A stretch of DNA of 39,838 nt from Candidatus Gemmiger stercoripullorum (GTDB lineage Bacteria > Bacillota > Clostridia > Oscillospirales > Ruminococcaceae), in assembly GCA_019119365.1 (NCBI GenBank), contig DWXD01000062.1, positions 1-39,838 on the forward strand. Direction: 5' to 3'. Position 1 is the first letter of the stretch. Each line of letters starts with the position of its first letter. Positions 30 through 30,487 of this stretch are shown piece by piece. Made by a program: the position numbers and the translations under genes. The notes beneath the pieces were generated by a model. It made no database searches. It saw only the letters and a list, made by a program, of their open reading frames with translations, and was not told the origin of the DNA.

Positions 30-145
30 ACGGCAGCTTCAGCCTGCCTCTTAACTCTCAACTCTTGACAGCAAACTCTAAACTCTTAACTCTCAACTCT
101 TGATAACAAACTCTTCGCTCTCAACTCTCAAAAACTAACTCTCCT
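30..145. repeat. Heptanucleotide repeat array (copy A)
   Basis: The stretch is made of degenerate 7-base units that read ACTCTNA on this strand (TNAGAGT on the other), broken by short spacers such as GACAGCA and GATAACA. The same units form the arms of the elements at 8495-8668, 9412-9611 and 29481-29548. No 95-base core is seen here, so this is a degenerate or arm-only copy. A small hairpin (CTGCC/GGCAG) lies just upstream around 20-35. The gene to the left is outside the window. Confidence 0.75.
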
Positions 146-5289: not shown

Positions 5290-6012
5290 ATGCTCAACCA
5301 GGAAACACTGGCCCGCATGGCCGAAAATGTGGCAGCCATCCGCCGGACAATGGCCGAAGCCGCCCGCAAAGCCGGGCGCGATGCGGCCGAAATACGCCTG
5401 TGCGCCGCCTGCAAGACCCGCACGGTCGAGGAGGTGCGCGCCAGCGCGGACCTTGCCATCGACCTGTTTGGCGAAAACCATGTGCAGGAGCTTGTGGAAA
5501 AGACCGACGCCGGGGCCTATGCGGGCAAGCCGGGGCATTTTATCGGCCACCTGCAGACCAACAAGGTCAACAAGGTCGTGGGCCGCGCGGCGGTCATCGA
5601 AAGCGTGGACAGCGAGCGCCTGCTGCAGAAGATCGAAGCCGCGGCCGCCCGCGCCGGTCTTGTGCAGGATATTTTGATCGAGGTCAATATCGGGGCCGAA
5701 GCCAGCAAGAGCGGCATTGCACCCGAAAGCCTGTGGCCGCTGGCCGAAGCCGCCGAGGCCGCCACCCACCTGCGCCTGCGCGGGCTGATGGCCATCCCAC
5801 CCGCCGATGCGACGCCGGAAATGACCCGCCGCTTTTTTGCGGCCATGCGCGAGCTTTTGGCCGCGCTGCAGGCCCGGCAGTATGCCCGCGCCGTGCCGGA
5901 TACGCTCTCGATGGGCATGAGCGGCGACTATGCCGCCGCCATTGAGGAAGGCGCGACCATCGTGCGCATCGGCACCGCAATCTACGGCGCGCGGGACTAC
6001 GCGAAACACTAA
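5290..6012 (+). CDS. YggS/PLPBP family pyridoxal-phosphate homeostasis protein
   Basis: Encodes 240 residues. The fold is that of the alanine-racemase N-terminal barrel. The PLP lysine is in LCAACKTRTVEEV (family VSKT; here ACKT), followed by GENHVQEL, HFIGHLQTNKVNKV and the C-terminal LSMGMSGDYAAAIEEGATIVRIGTAIYG phosphate-binding part. The family binds PLP without known catalysis and buffers B6 vitamers and amino-acid metabolism. ATG at 5290 is chosen because AGGAG lies 8 bases upstream; a longer frame would overlap the previous gene. Confidence 0.93.
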   Translation: MLNQETLARMAENVAAIRRTMAEAARKAGRDAAEIRLCAACKTRTVEEVRASADLAIDLFGENHVQELVEKTDAGAYAGKPGHFIGHLQTNKVNKVVGRAAVIESVDSERLLQKIEAAAARAGLVQDILIEVNIGAEASKSGIAPESLWPLAEAAEAATHLRLRGLMAIPPADATPEMTRRFFAAMRELLAALQARQYARAVPDTLSMGMSGDYAAAIEEGATIVRIGTAIYGARDYAKH

Positions 6013-6025
6013 AAACCAACATGCA

Positions 6026-6052
6026 GCGCCCGGCCGTTTTGCCCGGGCGCTT
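6026..6052 (+). terminator. Weak hairpin after yggS
   Basis: GCGCCCGG pairs with CCGGGCGC over an 8-9 base loop, followed by only CTTG. It may contribute to termination together with the stronger hairpin at 6242. Confidence 0.35.
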
Positions 6053-6140
6053 GCCGTTGACCGTGGGGGCATTCCATATCCGCCCGTGAATGTTCGCAAC
6101 GCGGCAAGGTCCCCGGTCGGTCGCTGTGTTCCCGACATTC

Positions 6141-6216
6141 TGTAGGGGACGATGCTCGCATCGTCCCGCAAAGAGCCTCCCGCCCCGCGGGCCGATGCCA
6201 AGCATCGGCCCCTACA
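6141..6216. repeat. REP-like palindromic element with TGTAGGGG ends
   Basis: The 76-base unit starts TGTAGGGG and ends CCCCTACA. Inside are two stem-loops in opposite orientation: GACGATGC/GCATCGTC and GGCCGATGC/GCATCGGCC, joined by a GC-rich linker. The layout is that of a paired REP/BIME-type or small MITE-like repeat. No other copy is in the window, so its repeated nature is inferred. Confidence 0.7.
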
Positions 6217-6241
6217 TAGGTTTGCGATGCCGCCGGGCTCT

Positions 6242-6273
6242 GCGCCCCCCTTTTTGAAGGGGGGCGCTTTTTT
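6242..6273 (+). terminator. Intrinsic terminator
   Basis: GCGCCCCCC pairs with GGGGGGCGC over an 8-base loop and is followed by TTTTTT. The T-run is on the plus strand, so it ends the UPF0340-yggS transcript. Confidence 0.85.
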
Positions 6274-6278
6274 GCTGC

Positions 6279-6866
6279 CTATTCGATCTGGATGCCGGCG
6301 CTGTCCAGCAGCGCGACGACCTCGGGGAAACTGAACCGCGCGCCCTTCAGCTTGTTGGCGGCGGGGTCGATGGCATAGGCTTCGGCGCGGCGGAAGTCGG
6401 CTTTCTGCAGGTCGCACCGCGTAAAGGCCGTGCGCCCCAGCGGCGCGCCGGAAAAATCCGCCCCGGCCAGCGCGCAGCCGTCAAACACACATTCCCGGAA
6501 CTGGCAGGTGGAAAAATCGAACCCCGCCAGCGCCAGGCCGGAAAAATCGCTGTATTGGAAGCTGCAGTTTGTAAGCGCCGCAAACGGCTGCGCCACGGCG
6601 CTGCGCCCGGTCAGCCCGCCCCAGGCAATGCTGCGGAACGCGCAGTTTTCCATCACGGCGTCCCGCATCAGGCAAAAGCTGAACACGACCCCCGAAAGCT
6701 GGCAGCGCACAAACCGGCAGTCGATAAAGCTGCAGTTCTGTGCGCGCAGGCCCTGCCAGCGGCAGGCTTCAAACGTACAGTCGCGGAATTCCGTGTCCTG
6801 CAGCACATCGCCGGGGGCAAAGGCGGTCAGCGTCTCGCCCTGGCGGAGCTGTTTTCTGGCAGGCAT
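6279..6866 (-). CDS. Pentapeptide-repeat protein
   Basis: Encodes 195 residues. From about residue 25 to 165 the sequence follows the A(D/N)LxX pentapeptide pattern in its Cys/Phe-rich form (TEFRDCTFEACRWQGLRAQN, CSFIDCRFVRCQLSG, CSFQYSDFSGLALAGFDFST). The product should fold as a right-handed quadrilateral beta-helix. Some such proteins (Qnr, MfpA) mimic DNA and protect gyrase, but nothing here shows that role. The start codon directly follows the TAA of the upstream ATPase gene (TAAATG), so translation is probably coupled and the two products may act together. Confidence 0.88.
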   Translation of the reverse strand: MPARKQLRQGETLTAFAPGDVLQDTEFRDCTFEACRWQGLRAQNCSFIDCRFVRCQLSGVVFSFCLMRDAVMENCAFRSIAWGGLTGRSAVAQPFAALTNCSFQYSDFSGLALAGFDFSTCQFRECVFDGCALAGADFSGAPLGRTAFTRCDLQKADFRRAEAYAIDPAANKLKGARFSFPEVVALLDSAGIQIE

Positions 6867-7827: not shown

Positions 7828-8457
7828 TTACTTGGTGCCGAAAATGCGGTCGCCCGCGTCGCCGAGACCGGGCACAATGTAGCCTTTGTCATTCAGGCGC
7901 TCGTCCAGCGCGCCGACATAGATGTCGACGTCGGGGTGCGCTTCGTGCAGGGCTTTCATGCCCTCCGGCGCGGCCAGCAGGCCGATGAACTTGATGTGCT
8001 TGGCGCCCTTCTTCTTGATCGTGGTGATCGCGTCGATGGCGCTGCCGCCGGTGGCCAGCATCGGGTCCAGCACTATGACTTCGCGCTCGGCAATGTCGTT
8101 GGGCAGCTTGCAGTAGTATTCCACCGGCTCCAGCGTGCCCTCGTTGCGGTACAGGCCGATATGCCCGACCTTGGCGGCCGGGATCATGCTCAGCATACCG
8201 TCCACCATGCCGAGCCCCGCGCGCAGGATGGGCACCAGCGCCAGCTTGCGCCCGGCCAGGACCTTGGTGCGGGCCAGCGCGATCGGCGTTTCGACCTCGA
8301 CCTCCTCGGTGGGCAGGTCGCGCGTGGCCTCGTAGCACAGCAGCATGGCGACTTCGCTGACAAGGTCGCGGAACTCCTTGGTGCCGGTGTTGCGGTCCCG
8401 CAGCAGGCTGATCTTGTGCTGGATCAGGGGATGATCGACGATTTCTACAACGCTCAT
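7828..8457 (-). CDS. upp: Uracil phosphoribosyltransferase
   Basis: Encodes 209 residues, the full family length. It converts uracil and PRPP to UMP in the pyrimidine salvage pathway, in the cytoplasm. The PRPP-binding motif is [14 protein letters not shown] at about 127-140, preceded by the conserved [14 protein letters not shown] segment. The C-terminal [18 protein letters not shown] is the uracil-binding end typical of Upp. AGGAG lies about 8 bases before the ATG. The upstream repeat element B ends 37 bases before the start codon. Confidence 0.98.
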
Positions 8458-8494
8458 AGTGGTGTCTCCTTCATGGTTTATATTTCGAGGATAA

Positions 8495-8668
8495 GAGTTT
8501 AGAGTGAAGAGCTTTTTGAGAGTTCAGAGTTTAGAGTTAAGAGTTTAGATTTGGTGGACCGCCGCCCTGCGGGCGGCTCAAAAAATGGCCTTGTACTGCG
8601 TGGCGCTTTTTCAAAATGTGCGCGCAGCGCACACCATATCTTAACTCTTAACTCTTCACTCTAAACTC
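8495..8668. mobile_element. Heptad-armed two-hairpin element, copy B (MITE-like)
   Basis: The 174-base element begins GAGTTTAGAGTGAAGAG and ends with its exact reverse complement (17-base terminal inverted repeats), flanked by TAA on both sides (8492-8494 and 8669-8671), which looks like a target duplication. The arms are 7-base units (TNAGAGT). The 95-base core (8547-8641) is bounded by AGATTTGGTG/CACCATATCT. It contains the hairpins GCCGCCC-TGC-GGGCGGC and TGTGCGC-GCA-GCGCACA. It carries no gene. On the minus strand the second hairpin is followed by TTTTG and may act as a terminator for tsaB. Confidence 0.75.
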
Positions 8669-9363
8669 TAATGTAAGGCCTGCTCCCGCGCAAGGCGGTC
8701 GCGCTCGGCCTGGCTTAAGCGGTGGTAGTCGGGCAGCAGCGCGGCGGGGGGCACGGCCCGGCCGTCCTGCCACAGCTGGCGCGCGGCCAGCGCCACGCCC
8801 GCGGCGCGCAGCACGCGCAGCGGCTGCGGGCAGGGCAGCACGCCCGGAACCTCGCTGTATCTATTGTAACACAACAAAGCGCCGTCGCCAACAAAAAACA
8901 GCGGCTTTTTGCAGCCGGACACAAATTTTTCCAGCGCTTCCACCGGCGCGGCGTCATCCGGCGTCAGCCGTTCGTGGGTTTCCAGGTCGAACCCGGCCCA
9001 GTACACCTGGCCGCGGCGGGCGTCCAGCGCCCCCACAACGGTGCCCGCGCCCGCCATGCCGTAAGCCAGCGCCGCCAGCGTCGAGACCCCGGCGCACGGC
9101 GTCTGGCGCGGCAGCGCCATCCCTTTGACGGCCGCCAGCCCGATGCGCAGCCCCGTAAAGCTGCCCGGCCCGGCCGTGACCGCGTACAGGCCGATATCGG
9201 CGCAGGTAAGGCCGCAGGCTTTCAGGGCGGCGTCCGCCATCGGCAGCAGCGTTTCGCTGTGGGTCAGGCCGGTGTTGGAAACGGTCTCATACAGCAGCGT
9301 GTCGTCCCGCAGGACCGCCACCGCCGCCGTTTTGCCCGCTGTATCCAGCGCAAGAATGTTCAT
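8668..9363 (-). CDS. tsaB: tRNA threonylcarbamoyladenosine biosynthesis protein TsaB
   Basis: Encodes 231 residues, normal for TsaB. It works with TsaD and TsaE to add the threonylcarbamoyl group to A37 of ANN-decoding tRNAs. The N-terminus MNILALDTAGKTAAVAVL and the TAGPGSFTGLRIGLAAVKGMA segment (about 63-82) are characteristic; ALDARRGQVYWAGF follows. The C-terminal tail is short and variable. The stop codon TAG is TA plus the first G of repeat element B, so the last residues were fixed by the insertion. AAGGAG is 11 bases before ATG. Element C lies between it and tsaE. Confidence 0.95.
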   Translation of the reverse strand: MNILALDTAGKTAAVAVLRDDTLLYETVSNTGLTHSETLLPMADAALKACGLTCADIGLYAVTAGPGSFTGLRIGLAAVKGMALPRQTPCAGVSTLAALAYGMAGAGTVVGALDARRGQVYWAGFDLETHERLTPDDAAPVEALEKFVSGCKKPLFFVGDGALLCYNRYSEVPGVLPCPQPLRVLRAAGVALAARQLWQDGRAVPPAALLPDYHRLSQAERDRLAREQALH

Positions 9364-9411
9364 AGGGGTAAGGCTCCTTTGTATCGGGGGAGAAGGGTGA
9401 GAGTGAGAATA

Positions 9412-9611
9412 GTGTTTAGAGTGAAGAGCTTTTTGAGAGTTCAGAGTTAAGAGCTTTTTTGAGAGTTCAGAGTTTAGAGTTTAGAGTTCAGATGCGGTGT
9501 GCGCTGCGCGCACATTTTGAAATATGCCGTACAGTTTCCGGCTATTTTTTTGAGCCGCCCGCAGGGCGGCGGTCCACCAAATCTAAACTCTTCACTCTTC
9601 ACTCTAAACTC
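9412..9611. mobile_element. Heptad-armed two-hairpin element, copy C (MITE-like)
   Basis: This 200-base relative of copy B is flanked by TA on each side (9410-9411 and 9612-9613). Its left arm shares 35 identical bases with copy B (9414-9448 against 8497-8531) in the same orientation, and has one extra arm unit. The 95-base core (9490-9584) is in the opposite orientation to that of copy B: GTGTGCGC hairpin first, then the GCCGCCC-GCA-GGGCGGC hairpin, ending CACCAAATCT. The core's central about 28 bases differ from copy B, so only the ends and hairpins are conserved. Confidence 0.75.
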
Positions 9612-10042
9612 TATAAAAGCGTTTCCGCGTTGCCGATCGTGATGCGGCGGGTGGTGTCGTCGATGCGGGCGATGTCCACCGTCACGGGGTTTTCCAGCGC
9701 CAGCGTCCCGGCGCAGTTTTCGCTCCACTCAGCGGCGATGACGGCGCCGCTGTCCAGGTAATCATAAAACCCGGCGGCCGCCAGGTCGGCGTCGCTGTGG
9801 ATGCGGTACAGGTCAAAGTGCGCCAGCGGCCGCGGCCCGCGGTAATAGTTGACGATCGCGAACGTCGGGCTGGAGACCGGGTCGGTGCAGCCGAGCCCTT
9901 CGGCCAGGCCCTGACAGAACGCCGTCTTGCCCGCGCCCAGCCCGCCGGTAAAGGCCACCACCGTGCCGGGGGCCAGCCGGGCGGCCAGCCGCCGCCCCAG
10001 TTCGACGGTCTCGGCGCGCGAATGGGTCATAAACTGCTGCAT
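9611..10042 (-). CDS. tsaE: tRNA threonylcarbamoyladenosine biosynthesis ATPase TsaE
   Basis: Encodes 143 residues, slightly short for TsaE (usually about 150-160). It is the ATPase that drives the TsaB-TsaD complex in t6A37 synthesis. Walker A is GGLGAGKTAF at about 33-42. SSPTFAIVNYYRG (about 57-69), HFDLYRI and the AAEWSEN motif follow as expected. The stop codon TAG is formed by TA plus the first G of repeat element C, so the C-terminal end may have been trimmed or replaced. It is the first gene of a minus-strand run tsaE-tsaB-upp, with a good promoter of its own. Confidence 0.95.
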   Translation of the reverse strand: MQQFMTHSRAETVELGRRLAARLAPGTVVAFTGGLGAGKTAFCQGLAEGLGCTDPVSSPTFAIVNYYRGPRPLAHFDLYRIHSDADLAAAGFYDYLDSGAVIAAEWSENCAGTLALENPVTVDIARIDDTTRRITIGNAETLL

Positions 10043-29486: not shown

Positions 29487-29548
29487 CAAACCCGCGGCGC
29501 TGCGCGCCGCGCACCAAATCTAAACTCTAAACTCTGAACTCTCAACTC
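29481..29548. mobile_element. Partial heptad element, copy D
   Basis: Holds one arm (four 7-base units, 29522-29548), the core boundary CACCAAATCT (29512-29521), one hairpin GCGGCGC-TGC-GCGCCGC (29494-29510) and the CTTTTTCAAA (29481-29490) found beside the same hairpin in copy B. The other core half and arm are missing. It begins directly after the stop codon of the nucleotidyltransferase gene. Confidence 0.7.
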
Positions 29549-30487
29549 TTAAAAAAGCCGGTCCTTCGGGTACAGCCCTTCCTGTGCCATGCGGGCCAGC
29601 GCGGCGACAAGCTCGGGCTTGTCCTCGCGGTAGGTGATGCCATGCCACTTGTCGGGACTTGTCAGCACGGTCACTTCGGCCGCGCCGTCCGCCAGCGCGG
29701 CCGTCACGACGCTGGGCAGGTAGTATTCGCATTTGAGCGGGTTGCGCGGCAGGTTTTCGGTCAAAAACGCCGCAAACCCCGCCTGCGCGCGGGCGACAAA
29801 ATCCGGCGTGAAGCCCCACAGGTTCATCGAGACGACCGCCGTTTCGGGCAGCGGGACCCAGCTTTCGCCGCCGTCCTCGGTATAGGCGATGCCGCCGTCC
29901 CGCTTTTCGATGCGGGTGCGCTCGGTCACACGGACCAGGCGGCTGCGCTCGTCCAGCTCGCACACCCCGCGGGACACAGAGCCGTTCTCGCTGACCGTGT
30001 TGCCCAGCAAAAAGCCCACCATCGCCCACGGCGCGGGCGTGCCGGGCGCGGCGGCGGCGCGGGAAAGGTGCTCGTAGATCAGGCGGAAGCCGGTCGGGCC
30101 ATAGTAGTCGTCGGCGTTGATGACCGCAAACGGCGCGTCGATGGCTTCGGCCGCCGCCAGGACCGCGTGCGCGGTGCCCCACGGCTTGACGCGCCCTTCG
30201 GGCACGGCAAAGCCCGCGGGCAGCTTGTCCAGCGTCTGGTAGGCGTAGCGCACGGCCAGCCCGGCGGCTTCGGCGCGCGCGCCCACGCTTTCGCGGAACG
30301 CCTGGTCGATCTCCGGCTTGATGATGAACACGACCGTCTCGAACCCGGCGCGGCGCGCGTCAAAAAGGCTGTAATCCAGGATGGCCTCGCCGTGCGGGCC
30401 CACCGGGTCGATCTGCTTGAGCCCGCCGTAGCGGCTGCCCATCCCGGCGGCCATCACGACCAAAATCGGTTTGCTGTTCTGCTGCAT
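29549..30487 (-). CDS. Nucleotidyltransferase (sugar-phosphate type)
   Basis: Encodes 312 residues. The N-terminal nucleotide-binding motif is VVMAAGMGSRYGGLKQ (about 10-25), and DADDYYG-type NADDYYGPTGF (about 124-134) provides the metal and base-binding acid. This is the NTP_transferase fold that activates a sugar-1-phosphate; the substrate is not readable. It differs from GalU and RfbA in several segments. The stop codon TAA lies exactly at the edge of repeat element D. It has a good promoter upstream. Confidence 0.9.
   Translation of the reverse strand: MQQNSKPILVVMAAGMGSRYGGLKQIDPVGPHGEAILDYSLFDARRAGFETVVFIIKPEIDQAFRESVGARAEAAGLAVRYAYQTLDKLPAGFAVPEGRVKPWGTAHAVLAAAEAIDAPFAVINADDYYGPTGFRLIYEHLSRAAAAPGTPAPWAMVGFLLGNTVSENGSVSRGVCELDERSRLVRVTERTRIEKRDGGIAYTEDGGESWVPLPETAVVSMNLWGFTPDFVARAQAGFAAFLTENLPRNPLKCEYYLPSVVTAALADGAAEVTVLTSPDKWHGITYREDKPELVAALARMAQEGLYPKDRLF

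Follow-up and report, generated by a model that had tools for sequence, protein, structure and literature searches.

The window analysed here, 39,838 nucleotides of contig DWXD01000062.1 from Candidatus Gemmiger stercoripullorum (contig C38 of the source genome, G000, which comprises 2.2 Mb in 70 contigs and is 90% complete), carries two gene-less repeat elements, B and C, which are mutually inverted and flank the gene that we take to be tsaB; C also adjoins the gene that we take to be tsaE, both names following an earlier note on this DNA. Each element is 151 bp long and is made of two face-to-face repeat units, the folded arms of which form one long stem with interruptions; B as a whole takes the shape of a single long, imperfect hairpin, with an RNA-fold z of -10.2, and the DNA fold of C has a z of -8.0.

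The earlier note's description of B and C as inverted-repeat elements built of heptamers and lying in opposite orientation was borne out, although the lengths that it gave, 174 and 200 bases, include partial heptamer blocks and T-run linkers outside the left unit. Its "perfect or near-perfect" inverted repeats hold for bases one to five of the heptamers, which agree nearly throughout between the arms, but not for the seventh base, which matches in 14/76 comparisons with the arms left unsorted. The TAG stop codons of tsaB (8668-8670) and tsaE (9611-9613) each consist of a T and the AG that forms the first two bases of the right unit of B or C, respectively; the idea that flank and element together make the stop is correct to this extent, whereas the TA regarded as flank lies itself within the heptamer. 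A solo unit elsewhere in the window similarly has as its first base the last base of the TAA stop (29549-29551) of a gene on the same strand.

A dispersed family of units with fixed ends

B and C are members of a large, high-copy dispersed repeat family. Its unit consists of four heptamers AGAGTTN and AGAT-NN-GGTG, together a 38-base end, followed by a GC-rich hairpin of variable sequence. A genome-wide search returned 123 matches to a three-heptamer pattern, compared with one for the reversed pattern, i.e. the repeat is present beyond chance, and a stricter pattern for the unit end gave 68 matches with none for the reversed control. Units were surveyed in 664 kb of the source genome, made up of the window and of stretches chosen for holding copies, and the densities are not genome averages; genes were called with a home-made gene caller, and a chance-like cluster (C30:19838) and heptamer blocks without an AGAT end were left out before counting. 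The survey yielded 71 units, 38 of them in 19 face-to-face pairs and 33 solo, two of the latter (C10:18205 and C6:9088) in fact having a partner overlooked by the pairing criteria.

The number of heptamers is exactly four in 65/71 units, and the AGAT-NN-GG head is constant in alignment A1, which contains only these 65 four-heptamer units and for which the search pattern itself required the two inner heptamers. The interior is 86-92 bp long in 16 of the 19 pairs, and 11 interiors of a single type, at different loci, have a mean identity of 88% (range 79-97%). A perfect stem of at least 6 bp follows the head in 66/71 units, compared with 2.7% of shuffles, yet the units with a stem have 25 distinct stem sequences; the hairpin is thus kept, but its sequence is not. 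An A-run follows the hairpin in 51/71 units and a terminator-like run of at least three T in 15/71 (11/33 solos and 4/38 paired units). The solos are as intact as the paired units and are not decayed remnants: both outer heptamers are intact in 25/33 of the former and 21/38 of the latter, and a decayed partner arm is absent in 31/33 solos.

The seventh base of the heptamers is hypervariable. Among the 11 like elements it differs pairwise by 70% in the GGAA-side arm and 57% in the GGTG-side arm, as against 0.0% and 2.2% for bases one to five and 16% and 13% for the sixth base, while the interior differs by 11% and its spacer by 17%. A search with the interior alone recovered 11 copies at the same loci as the heptamer-based search, so the fixed bases are not an artefact of the heptamer pattern. 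The seventh base thus seems to change faster than the presumably neutral interior. With the arms sorted by kind, which could be done for 18/19 pairs, it matches the partner arm in 14/72 cases (22.6 expected, p 0.008), and it matches that of the neighbouring heptamer in 21/99 and 18/108 cases (29.5 and 30.3 expected; p 0.013 and 0.003). No such neighbour avoidance was found in 46 arrays from other genomes, and at one neighbour pair of these the matches exceed expectation.

Gene ends, T-rich edges and relatives

The bias of the repeat to gene ends is real and strong. Distances to stop codons were tabulated, as the earlier note had suggested, and 20 of the 30 outer ends lying beside a gene 3' end are at most 9 bp from the stop, whereas 7% (length-weighted) to 19% (spacers equal) would be expected if the ends fell at random in the element-free spacers of these stretches. 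On the 5' side, the distance to the start codon is 16-30 bp for 13/18 solo ends; only 5/19 pair ends come within 30 bp of it, the others being farther away. In solos generally, the heptamer side is closer to a gene than the hairpin side in 25/32 cases (p 0.002). The seven bases outside the heptamers have a T fraction of 0.58 (70 units), compared with 0.14 after 527 other stops, and the value is 0.59 in the 48 units without a further outer heptamer block. The copy at C19:781 directly follows a terminator-like hairpin and T-run common to relatives, and other copies seemingly also lie directly after terminators, as judged by eye.

The proposal that the repeat supplies stop codons survives only weakly on comparison of the sequences. 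The stop overlaps the first heptamer in 7/30 cases, among them the stops of tsaB, of tsaE and of the gene that ends at 29549, but the upstream gene ends at the same place in relatives at C15:80932, C62:28807, C6:8969, C33:39266 (in the relative G006) and C9:17775, and an unchanged gene end without the element weighs against the idea. Of the two observations that the earlier note named as counting against it, a relative with the same stop and no element was thus found at some sites, whereas a lack of bias to gene ends was not. For tsaB and tsaE themselves, no two adjacent heptamers occur in the upp-tsaB-tsaE stretches of 20 relatives, i.e. the element is absent, but the C-termini of both proteins are so variable among the 20 that no replaced stop can be demonstrated. 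In the window (7828-9363 for the two genes) upp is next after tsaB, as it is in G017 and G028; in 18/20 relatives the next gene is presumably rpiB-like.

The three-heptamer pattern has no match in 33 of 34 other genomes of the genus. The remaining genome, G030, has a single match at the same site as C20:1072 of the source genome, with DNA 98.3% identical over 2451 bases and an overlap identical to a record of Candidatus Gemmiger faecigallinarum (L187); it is likely to be a stray contig or a recent transfer. Two relatives among the best matches, G006 and G023, were used for comparison site by site. At 18/24 further sites at least one of the two has the genes on either side of the spacer, giving 32 comparisons, of which 30 spacers were inspected, two longer spacers (457 and 699 bases) lying outside this set; two adjacent heptamers were found in none of 40 stretches taken from these genomes.

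A contig of this species, L189 (DWWN01000006.1, G429:C67), is apparently misplaced in the metagenome-assembled genome (MAG) of Candidatus Faecalibacterium faecigallinarum, where it alone, among 24 pieces searched, is close to the source genome. It differs from contig C10 by 60 mismatches in 4925 bases. The elements are common to both; one arm differs by 7+15 bases, and several seventh bases differ as well. The hairpin at C10:19100-19140 has its loop inverted relative to L189.

Table 1. Repeat elements, outlying heptamer blocks and neighbouring genes in the window
Feature	Position	Strand	Basis
Element B, face-to-face unit pair, interior 87 bp	8519..8669	.	alignment + fold
B left unit: four heptamers + AGATTTGGTG, then GC-rich hairpin	8519..8556	+	alignment A1
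B right unit: four heptamers + AGATATGGTG, then GC-rich hairpin	8632..8669	-	alignment
Partial extra heptamer block + CTTTTTG linker outside B	8494..8518	+	
Element C, unit pair, orientation opposite to B, interior 87 bp	9462..9612	.	alignment + fold
C left unit: four heptamers + AGATGCGGTG, then hairpin	9462..9499	+	alignment
C right unit: four heptamers + AGATTTGGTG, then hairpin	9575..9612	-	alignment
Further heptamer blocks, joined by T-run linkers, beyond C	about 9411..9461	+	
Solo unit with hairpin	29512..29549	-	alignment A1
Degenerate heptamer blocks lacking an AGAT head, at contig end; excluded from the unit count	42..144	-	
tsaB (presumed), neighbour, not part of the element	8668..9363	-	
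tsaE (presumed), neighbour, not part of the element	9611..10042	-	

Wider occurrence and known repeats

A search of 84,980 species genomes, the own genome excluded, with a pattern that required three heptamers and AGATNNGG, gave 37 stretches in 23 genome records, two of which contain the apparently stray contigs described above. The carriers are mostly gut or rumen Clostridia, with further ones in Microcoleus, Bacteroidales, Prevotella, Muribaculaceae, Planctomycetota, Verrucomicrobiales, Sumerlaeota and Endomicrobium. An inverted second array lies within 180 bases in 12/37 contexts outside the species, and the interiors of these pairs look unrelated. In a class-wide sample of 391 genomes the unit was found only in the source genome, apart from one chance-like match. 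The AGAT-headed unit is a subset of wider heptamer arrays, as only 11/98 heptamer runs on virus contigs end in AGAT; arrays of GAGTTNN occur in 16/394 genomes of the order, the own included, and are mostly of other kinds, the reversed control matching five genomes. Among the genomes of the order, G096, G420, G315, G371, G270, G122 and G039 (L155-L184) have GAGTTAG, GAGTTCG or GAGTTAT/GAGTTTA arrays, several of them beside hairpins or directly behind terminator-like T-runs, and a virus contig (L234, IMGVR_UViG_3300038675_001016, 5447-6541) has three inverted heptamer-array pairs, mostly AGAT-ended and with short interiors.

Miniature inverted-repeat transposable elements (MITEs) such as RUP, ERIC, Correia and NEMIS are, like the repeat described here, gene-less, ~100-200 bp long, intergenic and bounded by inverted ends, and a TA duplication is typical of several of them; the present repeat differs in having no TA duplication and ends built of heptamers. 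The short tandemly repeated repetitive (STRR) arrays of cyanobacteria also consist of degenerate 7-base units in intergenic DNA, but we know of no STRR array with a fixed count of four or an AGAT-NN-GGTG hairpin head. The repeat has the tandem intergenic 7-base units of heptanucleotide arrays, but not their variable number or their lack of further architecture. The TAACTGA repeats of Beggiatoaceae are likewise intergenic heptamers, some of which overlap the stops of upstream genes; they carry stops in all frames and are patchy across phyla, for which horizontal spread has been suggested, its mechanism not being evident in that work, and the available passages of that report mention neither a hairpin head nor an inverted doublet (PMC4679880).

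In agreement with the earlier note's view of an undescribed-looking, MITE-like element, the family looks undescribed, as judged from the open-access literature, heptamer-string matches having been assessed by title among those listed. In our reading, heptanucleotide repeats in bacterial spacers have so far been without a mechanism; here they form the constant ends of a distinct repeat that is tagged by a hairpin and clearly present in one genome and absent from relatives. They can therefore be studied as mobile DNA, and they allow an enzyme to be sought by binding to (AGAGTTN)4.

Possible mobility and its alternatives

Both-sided TA, at the boundary used by the earlier note, was seen in 2/18 paired elements (one pair being omitted) compared with 3.3 expected from the TA found next to 10/18 left and 6/18 right ends. 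TNAGAG is the heptamer unit itself, to which the TA belongs, and the TAA/TAA and TA/TA flanking duplications that had been proposed are therefore rejected. A search for target duplications of 2-6 bp at four boundary offsets per side revealed only one weak dinucleotide excess. As to enzymes, DDE_3 has no match in the 90% complete source genome and none in 10/11 of the further carriers tested; RVT_1 has none in the source genome and is present in 2/11 other carriers; a reverse transcriptase as the writer of the arms is rejected on this ground. Inward-facing units 0.3-6 kb apart exist in the source genome, and those inspected, by position and with no family search on the intervening genes, are neighbouring elements around ordinary-looking genes; an autonomous copy among them is conceivable.

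We tentatively favour the reading that B and C are high-copy, non-autonomous, REP-like (repetitive extragenic palindromic) mobile DNA moved in trans, without target duplication. It draws directly on the copy number, the fixed architecture, the kept hairpin, the copied interior, the heptamer-free relatives, the T-rich edges, the gene-end bias and the lack of a duplication, whereas we infer that the units transpose at all, that they do so by way of single strands, and that the gene-end bias stems from survival and not from targeting. What disperses would be the four heptamers AGAGTTN with a T-rich edge on one side and AGAT-NN-GGTG and usually a GC-rich hairpin on the other, either singly or as two inverted copies around an interior of ~88 bp. 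A trans-acting enzyme would most likely recognise single-stranded DNA by its heptamer end, its hairpin or both, leaving no duplication, with insertion into T-rich spacers just past stop codons, past terminators or a short way ahead of ribosome-binding sites. Insertions at the edges of genes would persist since reading frames are closed by the heptamers and the ribosome-binding sites are spared. As the solos are intact, unlike the singlets of REP doublets (REPINs), the solo unit, or only its heptamer arm, may itself disperse.

Several observations weigh against mobility of this kind. Neither an autonomous parent nor an enzyme was found among the candidates tested, no excision was seen, and the comparisons with G006 and G023, in which the flanks are only ~70-95% identical, gave no base-exact empty site. 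At the solo C16:18089, G023 (L356) has a near-identical hairpin and T-run at the same position in the spacer, without heptamers; this, with the T-runs after 11/33 solo hairpins, raises the possibility that some solos consist of a new heptamer arm beside a hairpin that was already there. Part of the T-rich edge is likewise native at C15, C19 and C33:59035, though apparently not at C49 and C62, and short spacers within operons may account for some of the gene-end bias. Finally, plain transposition and decay leave the hypervariable seventh base unexplained.

A bolder proposal, which is possible but doubtful, is that the arms represent a new type of mobile-DNA end, i.e. a code of 28 bases in four registers, each with five constant bases, a nearly constant sixth and a seventh that is diversified actively. 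Such diversification would come from re-writing, at insertion or at array turnover, or from selection for a mismatch at every seventh pair of the folded arms; if it takes place, DNA ends would be marked or protected in a way not seen before. Similar ends with other hairpins in distant phyla would point to a widespread unnamed enzyme. The 46 arrays from elsewhere that lack neighbour avoidance weigh against it, as does the fact that arm swapping from an older pool could yield the same pattern. The seventh base may reflect arm swapping, diversification or selected mismatches, e.g. against cleavage of perfect duplexes.

Returning to the nature of the elements themselves, it is doubtful that they are not just REP-like but REPINs in the strict sense, with the resident REP-associated tyrosine transposase (RAYT, or TnpA-REP, a Y1 HUH enzyme) as their mover. 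The parallels are considerable: in the part of the REPIN report available, REP sequences are described as short extragenic hairpin units, single or in inverted doublets with interiors of constant length, with free stem sequence and many copies per genome (PMC3116915), and the source genome has one RAYT-like Y1_Tnp gene (C16:20260-20634, L134), a route that would fit the lack of a target duplication. The same source, as far as available, describes REPIN singlets as less conserved remnants of doublets and REP units as bearing a bare tag (PMC3116915), whereas the solos here are intact and the end is one of four heptamers. The Y1_Tnp gene, moreover, sits among GTAG-type hairpin repeats, and its 3.4-kb locus has no adjacent heptamers, so that the resident RAYT is unconvincing as the mover; Y1_Tnp was found in 7/12 other carriers, the five absences possibly being MAG gaps, and four Y1 loci of other carriers show a single weak heptamer block in one and none in three. 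The GTAG-tagged hairpin repeat at this gene, GTAGGGGCGGATTCTATATCCGCC, occurs upstream of and within the reading frame and is a separate second repeat family.

It is unlikely that the arms are immobile, STRR-like heptamer arrays made by slippage and grown in places beside a native hairpin. Heptanucleotides are said to be the commonest longer simple-repeat category in most genomes, according to the available part of the TAACTGA report (PMC4679880), and the GAGTTNN arrays of the order and of virus contigs, the arm that differs between L189 and C10, and the heptamer-free hairpin at C16:18089 would all fit slippage. It does not account for exactly four heptamers in nearly all units, a constant head and copied interiors at unrelated loci, and adjacent heptamers avoid identity, the opposite of what slippage would be expected to produce.

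Quite unlikely, in our view, is a selected regulatory element at gene ends, such as a protein-binding site, a terminator or an mRNA-end structure. The strong folding, the gene-end bias and the T-runs after some hairpins are in keeping with it, and a role in translation has been proposed for TAACTGA heptamers in the portion of that work available (PMC4679880). However, the heptamers point outward from genes at 3' and 5' ends alike, which means that the mRNA strand differs, an A-run is the commoner sequel to the hairpin, the same spacers lack heptamers in relatives, and a search of 2.5 kb against Rfam gave two matches at E 0.87-0.94, far below the gathering score. An IS630/Tc1-type MITE with TA target duplication, the parentage put forward in the earlier note, is very improbable and is rejected: inverted repeats and the TA beside many single ends speak for it, but both-sided TA is not in excess, DDE_3 is unmatched and one-ended solos are common.

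Other repeats were noted in passing. A second degenerate heptamer, GGAATNA/AATTCCT, occurs beside or mixed with the same hairpins at C10:19060-19130 and in G441 (L358). Diverged long repeats, about 70-86% alike and found on many contigs and both strands, lie at C33:10770-11320, C10:10252-11363 and C62:51467-58702 of the source genome and at L189:1-671; that at C33:10770-11320 looks non-coding and is rich in GTAG-type hairpins.
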